Shown one piece after another: positions 14,934-22,057 of a stretch of 64,000 nucleotides of DNA. Every line of letters begins with the position of its first letter. The stretch's first letter is position 1. The notes below the pieces were generated by a model, which saw nothing but the letters and a program-made list of their open reading frames with translations, searched no databases and was not told the DNA's origin. The stretch is from Rhodoplanes sp. GTDB lineage: Bacteria; Pseudomonadota; Alphaproteobacteria; Rhizobiales; Xanthobacteraceae. Both the position numbers and the translations under genes were made by a program. The stretch covers positions 124,001 to 188,000 of the forward strand of contig NZ_JACAAX010000002.1 in NCBI RefSeq assembly GCF_013377085.1. The letters run 5' to 3'.

Positions 14934-15206
14934 CTACTCGGCCGCAGCCTCCGTCGCCGGTACAACCGACACGTAGGTGCGGCCACGGGCTTTGGCGCGA
15001 TATTGAATCGTGCCGTCGACCGTGGCGAAGAGAGTGTGATCCTTGCCGAGGCCGACGTTCACGCCCGGATGCCATTTCGTGCCGCGCTGGCGCACGATGA
15101 TGTTGCCGGCCCGGCACTGCTCGCCGCCGAACTTCTTCACGCCGAGACGTTGACCGGCCGAATCACGCCCGTTGCGCGAGGAGCCGCCTGCTTTTTTGTG
15201 AGCCAT
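14934..15206 (-). CDS. rpmA: 50S ribosomal protein L27
   Basis: 90 aa, full length. The start [20 protein letters not shown] is the conserved L27 N-terminus that reaches the peptidyl-transferase centre, without the Firmicute-type leader. [26 protein letters not shown] follows. It is co-transcribed with rplU, 112 bp downstream of it. Confidence 0.98.
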
Positions 15207-15318
15207 CGCTCGAATCCGTTTCGCTTAAGGGGTTCTAGCTTCGATTTGTGACCAAATCATCACCGGAACGGTCACGAGATGTTAAGCCCGCGGGCCATTC
15301 CGGCGCCTCGGCGGCGCC

Positions 15319-15693
15319 CTATTCCGCCGCCGGAGCCTCCGGTGCCGATTCGGCCGGCTTCGCCGTCCGTGACGGCGCACGCCCCTCGGTCAGAATCTCG
15401 GTGATGCGCACCACCGTGAAGTCCTGTCGGTGGCCGCGCTTGCGCCGCGAGTTCTTGCGGCGGCGCTTCTTGAAGGCGATGACCTTGGGGCCACGGCCCT
15501 GGCGGACGATCTCGCCCGCGACCGCGGCGCCCGCGACCGTCGGGGCGCCGAGCAGGGTCTCGTCCCCGCCCACCACCAGAACCTCGCCGAAGGTGACCAC
15601 GTCGCCGGGCTCGCCCGCGATGGTGTCGACCTGCAGCAGGTCGTCGGCGACCACCCGGAACTGCTTTCCGGCGGTCTTGATGACTGCGAACAT
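15319..15693 (-). CDS. rplU: 50S ribosomal protein L21
   Basis: 124 aa from [20 protein letters not shown]. The L21 signature region [20 protein letters not shown] lies at about 69-88. The C-terminal tail ([10 protein letters not shown]) is Ala/Pro/Glu-rich, longer than E. coli L21 but common in Rhizobiales. First gene of rplU-rpmA; its ~155-nt leader carries a strong hairpin next to the promoter. Confidence 0.97.
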
Positions 15694-15810
15694 CTTTCTG
15701 TCCTCGTGTTCGGATCCGGCCTGGACGGGCCGGCTTCTTTCAGTCGGTTGCTCTTGATCGGCCGCAGGGCGGCCGGACGATGGCCGGAGCGCCAAAATCC
15801 ACGCTGCAGC

Positions 15811-15842
15811 CAAAACAAAACGCGCGGGCCCGAGGGCCCGCG
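15811..15842 (-). terminator. Terminator-like hairpin at the start of the rplU leader
   Basis: Perfect 8-bp stem cgcgggcc / ggcccgcg with a 4-nt loop (15823-15842). On the minus strand it is followed by cgttttgtttt. It begins within about 10 nt of the predicted rplU transcription start, so it acts on the rplU transcript itself and not on an upstream gene. It is a candidate attenuator or 5'-stabilising structure. Confidence 0.6.
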
Positions 15843-15854
15843 GCACGTTTTGGG

Positions 15855-15883
15855 TTTATGGCGACTGGGTGACGTCCTGTCAA
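15855..15883 (-). promoter_or_regulatory. Strong sigma-70 promoter of rplU-rpmA
   Basis: Read on the minus strand: perfect -35 TTGACA (15883-15878), 17-bp spacer, -10 CATAAA (15860-15855). It is the best promoter match in the window and places the start at about 15848, giving a leader of roughly 155 nt. Confidence 0.75.
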
Positions 15884-16062
15884 GGAAACCGGGGTTCTGG
15901 ACCGGTCCGGCCCCCCGGGGCGCCCTGGCCGCCCCGGAGAGGCGCGCGGCAGGACCGTGGGTCGCGCAGGCGATCCCGCCGCAGCGGCCTTGTCTCGGCA
16001 ATGAAGCTTCGTGTAGAAGTCCGACGCGCCGGGCGACGTCGTCGTCCTGCACTCGGCCCCGC

Positions 16063-16152
16063 GGAGAGGTGGCAGAGTGGTTGAATGCACCGCACTCGAA
16101 ATGCGGCATACGGGTAACCGTATCGGGGGTTCGAATCCCTCCCTCTCCGCCA
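16063..16152 (+). tRNA. tRNA-Ser (anticodon CGA), CCA encoded
   Basis: Class II tRNA. The 7-bp acceptor stem ggagagg (16063-16069) pairs with cctctcc (16142-16148), followed by discriminator G and an encoded CCA. The anticodon stem ccgca/tgcgg flanks ctCGAaa, with the anticodon at 16097-16099. There is a long variable arm (catacgggtaaccgtatc) and a T-loop gttcgaatc. It reads UCG codons. Its 3' end borders the atypical island that follows, the usual position of an integration site. Confidence 0.95.
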
Positions 16153-16214
16153 CCTAAAGCTGTAAGCGGGAAACTCCTTCAAAATCAACAACTTACAGAT
16201 CGGCCGAGTTTCTT

Positions 16215-16240
16215 CGGTGGAGCACTGCGGTGGAGCACTC
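16215..16240 (+). repeat. Tandem 13-bp repeats just after tRNA-Ser
   Basis: cggtggagcact is present twice in perfect tandem (16215-16226 and 16228-16239) with a 13-bp period, 63 bp past the tRNA. A 7-bp inverted repeat ctgtaag/cttacag (16160-16166, 16192-16198) lies between. The arrangement resembles arm-type integrase binding sites beside an att site, but no integrase gene remains. The rest of 16153-16493 shows no gene. Confidence 0.5.
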
Positions 16241-16493
16241 TGCACCGGGTTGTGCCACGACGCGCCGCGATTCTCGACTCTATAGTTGGGGTGATTCAGG
16301 GCGGTTGAGGTTCTGAATCTTTCTCCACTACGCCTCGTAGAGGGAGAAATTTACCTATCGAGCAAAGCAGTCACCAGCGCGTCGCGCGCATCGACATAAG
16401 GGAAATGGGGACGCCGAAGTGCCGGCGGGCGTCATTGCCTATTATATTGCGGCGTGCCGCGCCTACATGTTCCATCTGCTGCAGGAGATTGGA

Positions 16494-17171
16494 ATGGACC
16501 CCACGCTCGGTGTGCCCGCAACGAAGTTGATCGATGCGTTCAAGTCCATTCCGACATGGCTGTTGGCGGGTCTACTCATTTCCCTCGCGTCGATCTGGCT
16601 ATGGCCGCCATTCCTGCTCGCGCTTCCCGAACCGGTGCGCTCGAACGTCCCGGTTGTGCTGTTCGTCCTGGCGACGTTGACCATCTGCAATCTCGTGAGC
16701 TTGTGGCTTGCGCATGCTGCCGAACGCCGGCAGCATTCCCGGGCACAAGAACGTGACCGATTGATGCATCTCTATCGTCCGCTCAATGCGCTCTTCCTGA
16801 CGCGGCACATCACGGTCTGCACCGCCCCCGCTTCGCCGCGCTTGCGGCATCGGGTCGAGAACGCCTGGGAAGCGCTCGGAGAGTATGAGCGGCGCTCGCG
16901 AGGCATCAATCGGGCTTTTCACGCGCTCTTCGACAAACAGAGTTCGTCGAGCGCTGAGGTCGAATATGGCGGCGACTTTCCGTTGGTCGCGATCATTGAT
17001 CTGGTGCGCAAGAATGTCCGGTATGCGAAACCCCAGCTGCAGGATCTCATCAATCGTGCCGATCGCTCGCGGTACGAGGAGTACGACAACGCCTTGATGA
17101 CCGACGCGGAGTATGCGCTGTTCGAACACATCGACAGCGAACATCGCCGACTGTCGGCTCGGGTCGGATAG
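16494..17171 (+). CDS. Hypothetical two-TM membrane protein of the island
   Basis: 225 aa. I chose the ATG at 16494 because aggag (16483-16487) lies 6 bp upstream; a GTG at 16419 would add 25 residues. Two hydrophobic helices (about 22-43 and 52-73) are joined by a short loop. A basic, charged cytoplasmic region follows (RRQHSRAQERDRLMHLYRPL), then an unrecognised soluble domain to the end. I recognise no family. It has lower GC than its neighbours and lies first in the tRNA-linked island, convergent with the HEPN/protease pair. Confidence 0.6.
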   Translation: MDPTLGVPATKLIDAFKSIPTWLLAGLLISLASIWLWPPFLLALPEPVRSNVPVVLFVLATLTICNLVSLWLAHAAERRQHSRAQERDRLMHLYRPLNALFLTRHITVCTAPASPRLRHRVENAWEALGEYERRSRGINRAFHALFDKQSSSSAEVEYGGDFPLVAIIDLVRKNVRYAKPQLQDLINRADRSRYEEYDNALMTDAEYALFEHIDSEHRRLSARVG

Positions 17172-17186
17172 AGCCGATCGAATTTT

Positions 17187-17210
17187 CATGATCGCGCGAG
17201 CGCGATCATG
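17187..17210. terminator. Convergent hairpin between the two-TM gene and the HEPN gene
   Basis: Perfect 10-bp stem catgatcgcg / cgcgatcatg with loop cgag, midway between two convergent stops (17171 and 17222). No T-run follows on either strand, so it is only a likely transcript end. Confidence 0.4.
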
Positions 17211-17221
17211 GCTCGACCGGC

Positions 17222-18430
17222 TTATCCTGGCGGCTCCAACTCCACGATCTTCCAATCCGGCTTGGTGCCGAGATCGAGCAATTTCCCGATCGCGGAAACG
17301 TACAAAGCAAAAGCCCCCTGTAGGATTGCGTCGACGATCTTTCCGCCGCGAGGCTTCAATGAGCCTCCGTGCGTCGCCTGGTTGCGGAGTTCGTAGAGCG
17401 AGGCGATCGACTGTCGATTCTGCGAACGCAGGGCGACTGGGCCTCCGACGAGTTGTGCGGTTCTTACACTCACCTTCCAACTCGGCGGAGCGTTGTCGCC
17501 CTGATCGCTCAAGGCGATCTCGAACGCGAGAGCCAGATCCAGGACGCGATCGATCTCCTGTTTGCGTGATTGGCTCAAACGGAATCTCTCCATCGACCGG
17601 AGAAGTCGCGATCGCTGCTCGCCCTCCAGACGTCCATAGCTATTGATGCTCGCGACGATCCGATCGCAGTCGACCGGAATAGCAAGCTTAACGGACGGGT
17701 TGATCTCCGGAAGCAGCCACGTGAGGCTGTTCTCCCATTCGGCCCATTCCAGTTCTTTATCCGCGTATTCGAACCAGCACGCGATCGCGACCGGATGACC
17801 AATGCAGCAGGCTTGGAGAAGGATAGATATTTCATCGATCCTGCAAATGGCGTTGTTCATGACTCCGAAAGCCGCAGCGTCGCTCCGGATGTAAGGAAAT
17901 TCTTGCAGCGTCTCGACGAGCGCGGCGGTCGGACGGTTATAGTACGTCTGCAGAAGCCACTGCGAGCCGTCGTAGCAGGGGTTCGCCCGATCCAAGATCT
18001 TTCTCTTCATGTAAGAATCGGAAAGAGCATCGAACGGTGTCAGCCGCGCTGACTGCGCCAAAGAGACGTCGTGATCGACGCGCAATCCCCAGAACGCAGC
18101 CTTTAAAAGACCCGTGGTTTCGCGCGTGGTCATCAGGCGCATGAGCCAAGAGACCGCGCCTTCGACGTCGTCGGTGAAGTGGACGCCTTTGTCGAACAGC
18201 CGTACGGCCAGACCATGGGCGTCGATAACTGGTCCCGAGCCGCCACTGAACAGAACTTTTCCTGCGATCGCGCGATAGGCGTTGCATCGTTCGATCGCGG
18301 TCACGAGCGTGGCAACCGCGCCGTCACTCGGGCCGCCTCCAAGCAACGTCCGCTTCATCTCCTGCCGCTTGTAGTCCTTCGAGACCGCCTCCAAAGCAGT
18401 CCGGAGAACAGCGGCATCGTCTTCAAACAT
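17222..18430 (-). CDS. HEPN-domain protein (ApeA-like C-terminal HEPN), coupled to a protease
   Basis: 402 aa. The last ~110 residues match the ApeA-like HEPN pattern: IDRVLDLALAFEIALSD (about 293-309), WKVSVRTAQLVGG, then LYELRNQATHGG with R349-x4-H354, the HEPN RNase signature. Residues 1-290 are an alpha-rich region with no recognised domain. Its start overlaps the protease stop by 8 bp (ATGTTTGA), so the two are translationally coupled. HEPN proteins are commonly RNases in toxin-antitoxin and anti-phage systems; whether this one is active is inferred from the intact RNxxxH only. Base composition is less GC-rich than the core genes. Confidence 0.65.
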   Translation of the reverse strand: MFEDDAAVLRTALEAVSKDYKRQEMKRTLLGGGPSDGAVATLVTAIERCNAYRAIAGKVLFSGGSGPVIDAHGLAVRLFDKGVHFTDDVEGAVSWLMRLMTTRETTGLLKAAFWGLRVDHDVSLAQSARLTPFDALSDSYMKRKILDRANPCYDGSQWLLQTYYNRPTAALVETLQEFPYIRSDAAAFGVMNNAICRIDEISILLQACCIGHPVAIACWFEYADKELEWAEWENSLTWLLPEINPSVKLAIPVDCDRIVASINSYGRLEGEQRSRLLRSMERFRLSQSRKQEIDRVLDLALAFEIALSDQGDNAPPSWKVSVRTAQLVGGPVALRSQNRQSIASLYELRNQATHGGSLKPRGGKIVDAILQGAFALYVSAIGKLLDLGTKPDWKIVELEPPG

Positions 18431-19274
18431 CGTCCTCGGTCCCCTTCGCCAGGGTCGTGTCGGCGTCCATTGCGATCAGCCCTCGTTCGACGAGTTGCCG
18501 CAACGTCGTCGTAGGTCCGCCCGCTGCCGCGTCCGAAATACGCTCGGGTATCGAAAGATCTAGAAGCGCTTCCGCGGGAGTGACGAAAGCGATGTCGGTC
18601 GCGCCGTCGTAGCTGCACGACGCGATCCCGAACACACGCCCGGCGGCGTCGAAGACGGGACCGCCGCTCGACCCTCCATGCAGGTTGATGCTGGTCCGGA
18701 AGTAGGGCGGCTTCAGCTTTGCCGACGGGCCGCGCTCCTCGAAGTGCTCCTCAAGGGCGCCATCGTAAAAGTCAGGCTGCAACCTGAAGACCTTTCCTTC
18801 ATCCGTGTCGACGACGGAGTGAAGCGGGTAACACCAGGTGCTGACGGGTGAGCCAATCGAAGGCGGCCGCGAGGACAGCGAAAGGACTTTGGGCCTGACG
18901 ACGCTGCCCGACGCATCGTCGACGAATTCGTACCGCGGAATGCCGAACGCGACGTCGGCGGTCGGGTGGACGAAGAACCTCCAGATCGGAAGGAAGAGGG
19001 TCCGACCGTCCGGCAGCGTGTGCGCGATCCCGACCGAGTCCCGCCTCTCAGCGAGCTGTCGCTCCGATTCGAGCGCGACATGGGCCGCTGTGGCGAAGCC
19101 TCCCTTGACCTGAAGATAGAAGCCGGTGCCGATCAGCGAGAAGCCGCCGGCGTCGGGGCTTCGGAGAATGGCGAAGGTCGCGAGGCGCCCGTCCGAGATG
19201 ACCGAGTCGGCGTTCTGCATGCGCCAAGACCCGGCGCTCGCGGTACCCGGCAGAGGTCTAAGGCGTCCGTTCAT
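18423..19274 (-). CDS. Trypsin-like serine protease of the island
   Basis: 283 aa, no signal peptide, so probably cytosolic. It is a chymotrypsin-fold domain with an intact triad: FATAAHV (His65), HPTADVAFG (Asp107) and NLHGGSSGGPVFD (Ser203). Residues 225-245 (TDIAFVTPAEALLDL) complete the fold; a C-terminal extension to 283 is unassigned. Trypsin-like proteases without export signals are frequent in bacterial conflict operons, where they activate or release an effector. The downstream coupled HEPN gene is the natural candidate target or partner. Confidence 0.8.
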   Translation of the reverse strand: MNGRLRPLPGTASAGSWRMQNADSVISDGRLATFAILRSPDAGGFSLIGTGFYLQVKGGFATAAHVALESERQLAERRDSVGIAHTLPDGRTLFLPIWRFFVHPTADVAFGIPRYEFVDDASGSVVRPKVLSLSSRPPSIGSPVSTWCYPLHSVVDTDEGKVFRLQPDFYDGALEEHFEERGPSAKLKPPYFRTSINLHGGSSGGPVFDAAGRVFGIASCSYDGATDIAFVTPAEALLDLSIPERISDAAAGGPTTTLRQLVERGLIAMDADTTLAKGTEDDV

Positions 19275-19648
19275 GACCGCAATCTAGTCGAACGCGCGAG
19301 GATGCGTCGAGCCTCCCCAAGGGTCTGGCGGTCTCCTAGAATCCGCGGACGGGCGGCGGATCTCTGCCGATCTATGGAATGAGCGATTTTGAGCGTTGCG
19401 TATTTGATTCGGCGATCCACAATCGACGGCTTAAGACCTTGAGATAGAATGGCAATTTGACAGTTGCGGGGGGCTTCGCCGCCCGGTCGACGAGCGCTGG
19501 CGCCGCGGGCGTCGCGGAAGGCTCTAGGAGCGCGACATGGGTACGAGCAGACGATCCGCACGTTGCGGTACCCGACCAATAGGTGCAGGCAGAGCGAGAC
19601 GGCATAGACTATGGTACCTCGCTGCGATCGTGTCCGCGCCCTCGTCCA
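19275..19648. other. Divergent intergenic region of the island
   Basis: 374 bp between the protease start (minus) and the zinc-ribbon HEPN start (plus). No credible ORF or RNA is seen. It must hold the promoters of both units; short AT-richer patches around 19375-19460 are the likeliest place, but no box is convincing. Confidence 0.4.
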
Positions 19649-20626
19649 ATGAATGCCGGCTCCCAAATGATCGTTAACGTCCCGACGCCGCAGACTTTGA
19701 ACGATGTCGCGCTGCGGCTGTATTTCTCGGCCTGGTCGTCCCTGATATACGTTCGGGTTCACTTCGACGAGGCGTTCCCCCCGGGCGAAGATTCGCGACC
19801 GGAGAAAGGCGGCTGGGCGGAGGAGTGGTCGGAATACATCGAAGGGTGCCAGCCAGAATTGCAGGCCGTCTGCTCGGTGATCCAGCAATCAAACGAGCTG
19901 GCATTGAAGGCGAGGATCTGTGCGGTCAGCCCCTACCTTCTGCTGCTCAACAGCACCCCCAAACTTAGCACCGTTCCAGGAGACATCGACTTCTCGGAAT
20001 TGCGGACCATCGACGCATCTGACCTTCCGGCATCGGTGAATTCGCTCTGCAAGGAAACGTTGAGCGACGAGTACATCCGGTCGTACAACGAAATCCGCTC
20101 GCTCAGGAACAAAATCGCGCACCTGGGTCATGCAGGCTCCAAATTCGAGCCCGAAACGCTCTTGGAACTCTTGGTCGACCAGTACATCGAGCTCTGGAGT
20201 GAAAGGGCTTGGCTCACGGACCGCGTCAATTTCGCCTCGCGCACCGGCTTAGCATTCTTCCAGGATGGTAAGTACACGTCCGCGGCCGCCGAAGTCATGT
20301 GCGAGCTTCCGTTAATCTTCACTGCTATAAAGAAGAGCGCGTTCAAGAAGCTTTTCGGTATCGAGAAGACCACGCGGAGATACCTCTGCCATGCCTGCGT
20401 TACAGACGCTTCCGTACGGTATCACGAGGTCGATCCGGTCCGGTCCAGGACGGCTTATCTGAAGGACAAATTCACCCTCCATTGCCTGATGTGCGGCGTC
20501 GACTACTCGGTCGTTCGGGAAGCCTGCCGCTCGGACGGATGCACGGGAAACGTCATCAGCAGGAGCGGGTATGCCGAGTGCGACGTCTGCCACACGTGCG
20601 GATCGGAGCAAACTGAGGCGTCGTAG
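19649..20626 (+). CDS. HEPN protein with C-terminal zinc ribbons
   Basis: 325 aa from ATG 19649 (ATG 19667 is an alternative; a longer open frame upstream is not conserved-looking). The N-terminal half is a HEPN-type helical domain: SNELALKARICAVSPYLLLL, then SYNEIRSLRNKIAHLG with R153-x4-H158. The last 80 residues carry paired cysteines: CHAC, CLMC, then CRSDGC and CDVCHTC, enough for two zinc ribbons. The layout suggests an RNA- or DNA-binding module attached to a HEPN RNase. No named family recognised. It diverges from the protease/HEPN pair. Confidence 0.6.
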   Translation: MNAGSQMIVNVPTPQTLNDVALRLYFSAWSSLIYVRVHFDEAFPPGEDSRPEKGGWAEEWSEYIEGCQPELQAVCSVIQQSNELALKARICAVSPYLLLLNSTPKLSTVPGDIDFSELRTIDASDLPASVNSLCKETLSDEYIRSYNEIRSLRNKIAHLGHAGSKFEPETLLELLVDQYIELWSERAWLTDRVNFASRTGLAFFQDGKYTSAAAEVMCELPLIFTAIKKSAFKKLFGIEKTTRRYLCHACVTDASVRYHEVDPVRSRTAYLKDKFTLHCLMCGVDYSVVREACRSDGCTGNVISRSGYAECDVCHTCGSEQTEAS

Positions 20627-20655
20627 GTCGTAAATGGACGTCAGCGACTTTCCGC

Positions 20656-20805
20656 ATGACAAACGCTCAAAGGCGAGTCCGAAACGCGCCCGGTCGTGTA
20701 AACTGGATCCTTGACCTTTGGGCTGCGGGACATGTCGGTGATCTGCGAGCGACGGCGATTGCGGACATGATCGCCAACCCGCGGAAGCGTTTACGTGAAG
20801 ATTGA
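20656..20805 (+). CDS. Small ORF after the zinc-ribbon HEPN gene
   Basis: 49 codons from ATG to TGA, 29 bp after the HEPN/zinc-ribbon stop on the same strand. The product is basic, with a central stretch NWILDLWAAGHVGDLRATAI followed by ADMIANPRKRL that looks like real protein rather than frame noise. No ribosome-binding site is obvious and no family recognised. It could be the tail of a decayed gene or a small partner of the HEPN protein. 20806-21063 holds no gene; a REP-like half palindrome (gtcgcgggtcgagcccgcgaatgac) lies near 20990-21013. Confidence 0.3.
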   Translation: MTNAQRRVRNAPGRVNWILDLWAAGHVGDLRATAIADMIANPRKRLRED

Positions 20806-21063
20806 CGAGCTGCAGAGTATATCACTCGACCTCCGTCTTAATACGGAATGTCAGCCGCGATCGGCAGTATTTCTGTATAGGGCTTCGGCATTCCCGAATG
20901 CTCCTGCCGCGCGCAGGACCCGCTCGCGCTCCATTGCCGTCCCGGAAGGGGGAATCTCCAGGAACACCGCCACGACGCTGAACTGGGCAGTCGCGGGTCG
21001 AGCCCGCGAATGACGTGTCGGGAGGGCGTGTCGTTGCTCACGCGGGCTCGAGGCTACGGGGTC

Positions 21064-21104
21064 GCCCCGCCGGCCGAGCACACCGCGTCGTCGGCCGGCG
21101 GGGC
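21064..21104 (-). terminator. Long GC hairpin downstream of the gal-type operon
   Basis: Perfect 14-bp stem gccccgccggccga / tcggccggcggggc with a 13-nt loop, about 45 bp past the last gene of the minus-strand operon. No T-run follows on the minus strand. Confidence 0.5.
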
Positions 21105-21148
21105 ATTTGGATGTGCCCCGCCGGCTGACCCGTCAGCGCGATCTCATG

Positions 21149-22057
21149 TCACGCTTTGGCCTTCTGCTCTTCCGCGGTCAGCACCTTGTCGAGAACGTCC
21201 AGGATCTCGGTGTAGCTCTTGGGCTCTCCGCCGGGCCAGGTGACGTTGCGCAGACGCTCGTGGGCCCAGGCGATGCGCTGGCCGGTCGCCTTGGCCATGA
21301 TCGGATCCAGCCCGAGCTCGGCCACCGTGTCGGCCGACTCCGCCATCTCGGTCACGCGCCGGGCCCCGTGAATGGCCGTCCGGCCGAGGTAGTAGGTCGC
21401 GACCTGGCGCCAATCCAAGCCCGGGAACGTCTCCGACACGGAATCCAGGATGCGCTCCTCGATGCCCCAGCGACGAGCGGCGACCAAGCTCTCCAACAGC
21501 AGGGACTCGATGCCCTTGATCATGATGCTGCGCAGCATCTTGTTGAGCGACGCCTGGCCGACCGTGTCGCCGGCCGCTTCGGCCTTCATGCCGAGCTTGC
21601 CGAGCCGCTCCGCCAGCTCCTGCGCCTTCGGCCCCGCCAGCAGCAGCGGGACGCGATGCCCGTAGGGCGGCACCCGCGCCATGACGGCGGCCTCGACATA
21701 ATCCGCGCCGGAGGGCGTGACGGCCGCGCCCACCGCACGCTTGGTGCCGGGCGAAACCGAGTTCATGTCGATATAGAAGCAGCCGGGCTTGAGGAACGCG
21801 GCGGCCGAGCGGGCCGCGGCCACGGCCGCGCTGCCGACGACGAGCGACAGCACGATGGTCGCCCCGTCGAGCGCCTCGCGGAGGTCGCCGCAGGGCTGGA
21901 TTCCGGCCGCCTCCGCCGTCTTCTTCAAGGCGGCGCCATCGGGCCCGGCAAACCGCAGGTCGAAGGCCTTCACCGGGACCTTCGCCTCCTTGACCAGGCC
22001 CGTCGCGATGCTGCGGCCGGCTTCGCCGAAGCCGATCAATGTCAGGCGTTCACTCAT
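21149..22057 (-). CDS. NAD(P)-dependent dehydrogenase with DUF1932 domain
   Basis: 302 aa from MSERLTLIGFGEAGRSIATG, where the Rossmann GxGxxG-type loop is visible. It has a 6-phosphogluconate-dehydrogenase-like NAD-binding domain (about 1-180) and a C-terminal DUF1932 helical domain containing LNKMLRSIMIKGIESLLLES. Its ATG overlaps the preceding aldolase stop by 8 bp. Its place in a GalDBC-type cluster suggests oxidation or reduction of a hydroxy-acid intermediate, but the reaction is not known. Last gene of the operon. Confidence 0.8.
   Translation of the reverse strand: MSERLTLIGFGEAGRSIATGLVKEAKVPVKAFDLRFAGPDGAALKKTAEAAGIQPCGDLREALDGATIVLSLVVGSAAVAAARSAAAFLKPGCFYIDMNSVSPGTKRAVGAAVTPSGADYVEAAVMARVPPYGHRVPLLLAGPKAQELAERLGKLGMKAEAAGDTVGQASLNKMLRSIMIKGIESLLLESLVAARRWGIEERILDSVSETFPGLDWRQVATYYLGRTAIHGARRVTEMAESADTVAELGLDPIMAKATGQRIAWAHERLRNVTWPGGEPKSYTEILDVLDKVLTAEEQKAKA

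Follow-up and report, generated by a model that had tools for sequence, protein, structure and literature searches.

A trypsin-like protease gene and an overlapping HEPN-motif gene form a narrow, dissociable cassette in Rhodoplanes and Bradyrhizobium

A two-gene cassette in Rhodoplanes

We analysed a 64,000-nucleotide stretch of Rhodoplanes sp. DNA (the window) and found a gene for a standalone trypsin-like serine protease that overlaps a gene for a HEPN-motif protein. The pair is not an accident of the Rhodoplanes genome, and it is narrow and dissociable, with related loci that carry either gene without the other. We tentatively favour the view that the two genes make up a young, mobile cassette with a probable role in defence, whose ApeA-like RNase can work by itself and whose protease is an accessory. 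Three other readings are weighed below at the evidence that bears on them, and the likelihoods attached to all four are a matter of judgement.

The protease gene lies upstream and the HEPN gene downstream, and both frames are intact in the window (Table 1). A reading made earlier from the window's letters alone (the sequence-only reading) had described an 8-bp overlap and translational coupling of the two genes. Both open reading frames were found, overlapping as described, and since the genes overlap, translational coupling is probable.

Table 1. Features of the protease-HEPN locus in window coordinates.
Feature	Position	Strand	Remarks
HEPN-motif protein gene	17222..18430	-	402 aa; predicted C-terminal ApeA-like HEPN, R349-N-Q-A-T-H354
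Standalone trypsin-like serine protease gene	18423..19274	-	283 aa; triad H65, D107, S203
Overlap of protease stop and HEPN start	18423..18430	-	8 nt, ATGTTTGA; junction also in L042, L092 and the remnant locus L091
DNA block common to the window and Bradyrhizobium macuxiense L042	17218..19311		81% identity, 2101 columns; two genes only
Codon of protease catalytic His65	19080..19082	-
Codon of protease catalytic Asp107	18954..18956	-
Codon of protease catalytic Ser203	18666..18668	-
HEPN Rx4H motif, Arg349 to His354	17369..17386	-
Divergent neighbouring gene	19583..20626	+	347 aa
ORF convergent with the HEPN gene	16419..17171	+	250 aa; near tRNA-Ser

Recurrence of the pair

Comparison of positions 15001-22000 of the window with the DNA of the B. 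macuxiense locus (L042, taken as genome G883) gave a single match at an E-value of 1e-5, the block listed in Table 1. Since this one 2.1-kb match holds the two genes, they behave as a unit sitting among unrelated neighbours. At L042 the protease is 81% identical and intact, and the HEPN gene carries two single-base frame changes, which are either real or draft errors. A second Bradyrhizobium locus (L092, genome G1108) has an intact HEPN gene of 402 aa (80% identical) next to a protease remnant that covers residues 188-283, roughly the last 40% of the protein, at 83% identity and with a frame break. At a third (L091, genome G1107) the protease is 82% identical over residues 1-242, and its frame stays open across the triad and changes near residue 243; a 39-codon frame is left of its HEPN gene, and only the first dozen or so codons look HEPN-like by eye. 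The sequence-only reading had named an absence of the pair elsewhere as evidence against it; the same pair and junction recur, or recurred, at three loci beyond the Rhodoplanes genome.

The pair or its remnant is present at four of the nine loci whose protease shares 50% identity or more with that of the window. These are all four members of the closest clade (about 80% or more protease identity), and all four keep the 8-nt junction. They are close relatives and not four independent acquisitions. The association holds within this clade and was not seen at the five more distant loci, which have no HEPN homologue nearby. The synonymous divergence (dS) of obgE between the window genome and four Bradyrhizobium genomes was 0.52-0.77 and that of the pair against L042 was 0.59-0.88; with values so alike, vertical descent and an old transfer fit equally, and we rejected dating by dS.

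So narrow a distribution may indicate that a single Bradyrhizobium-related clade had an ancestor in which two unrelated cargo genes, each useful alone, came to share a transcript without any functional link. The confinement of the pair to one close clade fits this account, as do the five remaining loci and five more with proteases of about 27-33% identity, which have no HEPN homologue nearby, and the fact that one partner is frame-broken, truncated or lost at three of the four paired loci. However, the block occurs as a whole, junction included, at sites that are otherwise unrelated, both frames are intact in the window, and both genes are under purifying selection. For the protease, omega was 0.21 between the window and L042 and 0.17 for the L091 gene; for the HEPN gene it was 0.16, 0.14 and 0.09 in three pieces compared with L042, and 0.18 between the window and L092. 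We consider an association without a functional link unlikely, though second in likelihood among the four readings.

The protease

The protease matched Pfam Trypsin_2 (PF13365) with 47 bits (cut-off 27.6), the sole model above its cut-off. Its catalytic residues H65, D107 and S203 were invariant in all seven aligned proteases, that of the window included, and in four of four in an earlier set. The best of five predicted structures was a trypsin fold with a mean pLDDT of 81.3, the other four ranging from 62.7 to 41.1. Model score, His-Asp-Ser triad and fold together place the protein among the trypsin-like serine peptidases of PF13365. Its N-terminus is not hydrophobic (maximum 19-residue Kyte-Doolittle mean of 0.96 within the first 60 residues), and neither a signal peptide nor a transmembrane segment was apparent by hydropathy. 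The 283-aa frame, with Trypsin_2 alone above cut-off, contains no fused sensor or defence enzyme. PADLOC also gave weak matches to RT-Protease_XI (3.7e-7).

The HEPN protein

R349 and H354 were invariant in the nine aligned HEPN sequences, so that catalytic residues are retained in the aligned homologues of both proteins; their loss was something the sequence-only reading had named as speaking against it. By regular expression, R[NS]xxxH was present in nine of ten sequences, the exception (L065) having R-G. The sequence-only reading had also described a signal-less trypsin-fold protease and a C-terminal ApeA-like HEPN module; the Trypsin_2 match and the RNxxxH motif bear this out, the ApeA likeness coming by weak profile only. 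The best PDB profile matches of the 402-aa protein were chains of Ec2ApeA, an E. coli ApeA of solved structure, with E-values of 4.7e-4 for the whole sequence and a weak 0.017 for the best single stretch, and the similarity was confined to the C-terminal part, around the HEPN motif. Curated models behaved otherwise, with no match to the 402-aa protein at an E-value of 1 or below in Pfam, PADLOC or NCBIfam. A Pfam scan of nine members of the family reported HEPN_RiboL-PSP (0.056) and DUF3644 (0.15), in one member each; no MBL family came up in Pfam, and PADLOC gave no match. ApeA was not found in a single-sequence search with the 402-aa protein of the window. The AlphaFold model was unusable (pLDDT 37), and the N-terminal part has no assigned fold.

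We place the 402-aa protein in the HEPN superfamily as a predicted RNase that is ApeA-like by profile only. It differs from ApeA in that similarity rises above noise only around the HEPN motif, and Ec2ApeA, at 593 aa, is longer. To our knowledge, ApeA has no protease partner. The likeness to ApeA (PDB 9hxd and relatives, and the HEPN survey PMC3710099, as far as their available text goes) lies in a C-terminal HEPN with Rx4H, an N-terminal extension and the best PDB profile match. The title of a reference in PMC13405049 speaks of activation of ApeA by deoxydinucleotides. Even if its link to the protease is loose, this ApeA-like HEPN family escapes the Pfam and PADLOC models tested.

Each gene without the other

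Around five proteases of at least 50% identity, the stretch read holds no HEPN homologue: those of L043 (taken as genome G957, 74%), L060 (G952, 67%), L044 from Methylocystis (63%), L039 on a Methylovirgula plasmid (62.5%) and L045 from B. rifense (taken as G1018, 50%). The whole genomes of L043, L060, L044 and L045 likewise gave no HEPN homologue at an E-value of 0.001. The same was true of the stretches read beside the five distant proteases of 27-33% identity (L040, L041, L046, L047 and L093); L093 (G1024, about 29%) came from the genus search and is counted among them, and six B. multivorans records were counted once.

Conversely, seven full-length HEPN genes at least 38% identical were found, and three of them adjoin the protease or its remnant. 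These three are the genes of the window, of G883 (frame-broken) and of G1108; the others are in G114 (42-43%), G925 and G988 (both 39%) and G1006 (38%). No protease was detected at an E-value of 0.001 in the genomes of G114 and G925, with a query that gave matches in the family and genus samples, nor at 1e-10 in G925, G988 and G1006 within the sample of the genus of G883, to which we infer that G988 and G1006 belong. A trypsin motif was present near none of 13 HEPN loci without the protease (1-1.5 kb on each side scanned for L094 and L095), and the same scan caught all three trypsin-like ORFs of L045. G873, which has a HEPN fragment of 61-64% identity, gave no protease. The weak HEPN-domain matches L004-L007, L037 and L038 were left out of the neighbour counts.

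These loci bear on the idea that the protease is an off-switch, degrading a HEPN RNase that stays silent until infection blocks the protease. Some toxin-antitoxin operons place the antidote gene first, and the order and overlap seen here resemble theirs. Such a pair would not be expected to leave its toxin gene intact without the antidote gene. In G1108, however, the HEPN gene is whole and the protease next to it truncated, and the genomes of four full-length relatives of the HEPN protein (G114, G925, G988 and G1006) gave no protease match. Bacteria can therefore do without the supposed antidote, unless the HEPN protein of G1108 is inactive or unexpressed, which argues against a strict toxin-antitoxin bond. 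An off-switch of this sort is very improbable.

Wider searches agreed with a narrow distribution. At an E-value of 1e-3 the HEPN protein gave matches in seven of 385 genomes of the class and three of 199 of the order, the own genome included in each, and six of the eight non-own matches in these two samples were weak (E above 1e-8). It matched eight of 391 genomes of the family at 1e-4 (own genome included) and, at 1e-10, five of 146 in the genus of G883. The protease gave matches in 23 of 199 genomes of the order (1e-3); those besides the own genome were weak and mostly short around the Ser motif, and we took them as general trypsins and did not count them. At 1e-10 it matched four of 391 family genomes and seven of 265 genomes of the genus of G883. 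Both genes were present in two genomes of the family sample, the own genome and G883 (protease at 1e-10, HEPN at 1e-4). A protease alignment against a collection of 84,980 species yielded six relatives. Among 72,556 plasmid records, eight matched the protease, and the three neighbourhoods read held no HEPN homologue; three matched the HEPN protein, with no trypsin motif nearby. Phage records gave no match for either protein, and viral contigs no relative of either. We rejected a strict two-gene system conserved across bacteria, the plasmid neighbourhoods read for each gene being without its partner.

Does the protease activate the HEPN protein?

The sequence-only reading had proposed that the protease may, on infection, activate the HEPN RNase or set it free. 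The HEPN protein would then be a proenzyme, and infection would switch on the protease, which would clip it and release the RNase, as in the pairs of MBL nuclease and trypsin in Hachiman and AVAST. The overlap of the genes, the common origin of the pair at the four loci and the intact triad and Rx4H motif are consistent with this, and there is a published precedent for a trypsin-like protease that activates a paired pro-nuclease (PMC12799240, in its available part). However, an alignment of two paired and four unpaired HEPN proteins was collinear, with no pair-specific insertion, and the gate of known protease-activated nucleases is thus not seen. Moreover, the HEPN gene of G1108 is intact without a whole protease, and the published trypsins are fused to another defence protein while the one described here is standalone with only Trypsin_2 above cut-off. 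The missing insertion and the intact HEPN gene of G1108 beside its truncated protease make activation by removal of a gate less likely, and still allow cleavage elsewhere or an indirect role. Since relatives of each gene also occur alone, the proposal of the sequence-only reading gained no support, and protease activation of the HEPN RNase is possible but unproven; we regard it as unlikely and rank it third.

According to the reading we favour, the upstream gene would supply a cytosolic trypsin-like protease and the downstream overlapping gene an ApeA-like protein, in which a C-terminal HEPN RNase would follow an N-terminal region that may act as a sensor. This protein would be a self-contained effector directed at phages or other mobile DNA: sensing of infection by its N-terminal region would lead to dimerisation, RNA cutting and a stop in growth, and its unpaired relatives would presumably work alone in the same manner. 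The co-expressed protease may tune this effector or attack a second target. The data themselves show the cassette with its overlap and recurrence, the catalytic residues, purifying selection on both genes and the occurrence of each gene alone; RNase activity, a role in defence, sensing and contact between the protease and the HEPN protein are what we infer. This reading also draws on the lower GC content near tRNA-Ser, the integrase-like gene and the PD-Lambda-2_B match at the related loci, the protease's RT-Protease_XI matches and the profile similarity to ApeA. Against it count the weakness of that similarity and the lack of a complete defence system among the four window proteins scanned with PADLOC. 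The junction and the two frames kept in the window could reflect a real functional bond instead of an accessory role.

In its strongest form, such a bond would mean that the protease directly controls the HEPN RNase by cleavage. The pair would then be a minimal immune switch of two genes, with the first HEPN effector under protease control, and HEPN would follow MBL and NucA as the third type of nuclease recruited by trypsin-like proteases. We hold this to be unlikely. If the pair did work by proteolytic control, the principle would be extended from DNases to RNases, and the related loci that carry an intact HEPN gene alone, the protease alone or both would amount to a natural experiment.

Comparison with described systems

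That bacterial immunity can control nucleases by proteolysis was demonstrated only recently, for DNases; as far as the available text of PMC12799240 goes, a trypsin-like domain cuts gating insertions of an MBL DNase, and nuclease-protease pairs are described in Hachiman (HamMAB), AVAST, Lamassu and DRT, together with caspase-nuclease canu loci. The window pair resembles these in having a (here predicted) nuclease gene next to a gene for a trypsin-like protease, with catalytic residues intact, and in being mobile and modular. In that text the partner is a DNase of the MBL fold that carries gating insertions and whose gene typically precedes that of the protease, and the trypsin forms a fusion with a defence protein, whereas here a HEPN partner lies downstream, shows no gate by alignment and accompanies a standalone protease. 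An MBL-fold partner, a fused protease and a nuclease gating insertion absent from unpaired relatives, which mark those pairs (PMC12799240, same text), are thus all missing from the window pair.

The NucA-trypsin systems (System 3 in the accessible part of PMC7159879) share a two-part core of a trypsin-like peptidase and an endonuclease, and proteolytic activation has been proposed for them. They differ in that NucA belongs to the HNH superfamily, several members have transmembrane segments or fusions, and that part of the source describes no HEPN partner. Tha of S. aureus prophages, an abortive-infection effector, likewise joins an unrecognised N-terminus to a C-terminal HEPN RNase, but it is phage-encoded, has 301 aa, is activated by tail proteins and is inhibited by Ith, with no protease described in the available portion of PMC11087260.

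No HEPN-trypsin pair was found in open-licence full text. In the wider literature, as far as the sources were available, the matches listed comprised MBL and NucA systems and no HEPN-trypsin pair. The view of the sequence-only reading that no system of this composition had been described therefore stands for the HEPN partner within the literature searched, and falls for trypsin-like proteases paired with other nucleases (PMC12799240 and PMC7159879, each in its available part). The HEPN partner would be new; trypsin-nuclease pairs with MBL or NucA are already published.

Genomic neighbourhood

The GC content was 0.649 for the protease gene, 0.584 for the HEPN gene and 0.683 for the window. The region from 16 to 20 kb has a GC content below most of the window and adjoins tRNA-Ser. 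No integrase was recognised there by eye, and the ends of the island showed no direct repeat of the tRNA. No complete defence system was seen in the window, four island proteins having been scanned against PADLOC. At the other loci, about 1.8 kb separates the L042 pair from a PADLOC match to PD-Lambda-2_B (350.6 bits), and the L092 pair has an integrase-like gene (Arm-DNA-bind_3, 36.6 bits) in its vicinity.

The 250-aa ORF convergent with the HEPN gene has a hydrophobic segment (maximum Kyte-Doolittle value of 2.35 at residue 79) and matched no Pfam family above cut-off. The divergent 347-aa neighbour contains an RNKIAH HEPN-like motif and C-terminal zinc-ribbon-like Cys pairs, both recognised by eye, and gave weak PADLOC matches (Csx1, 2.9e-4).

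About 100 nt downstream of the HEPN gene, L042 (8161-9531) and L092 (6382-7596) carry a gene of 404-456 aa that is 85.5% identical over 380 codons between the two loci. A search of the window genome, run without a positive control, did not detect it, and relatives are on 92 plasmid records; we did not retain it as a core third gene of the cassette.

Two distant Burkholderia proteases (about 33% identity; L040, 7848-10222, and L047, 5899-10836) have PIN-domain proteins encoded downstream of them, by annotation in L040 and by eye in L047, and in L040 an 81-aa ORF lies in between. In the B. rifense locus L045 (5213-9839), a stretch of 4.7 kb holds three trypsin-like ORFs. The first two adjoin or overlap, according to which start is chosen, and a convergent 477-aa ORF containing an RNDAAH motif separates the second from the third. 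A common theme of a protease with swapped RNase effectors at L040, L047 and L045 was not adopted, because the intervening genes differ and the L045 ORF has no Pfam or PADLOC report.

Relatives of the 347-aa neighbour are on 20 of 72,556 plasmid records, the best of them directly after repABC on an Agrobacterium plasmid (L069, 3829-4788). The lone Methylovirgula protease (L039, 8043-8804) is likewise the next listed gene after plasmid repABC, and the spot after repABC is possibly a shared cargo spot for the two.
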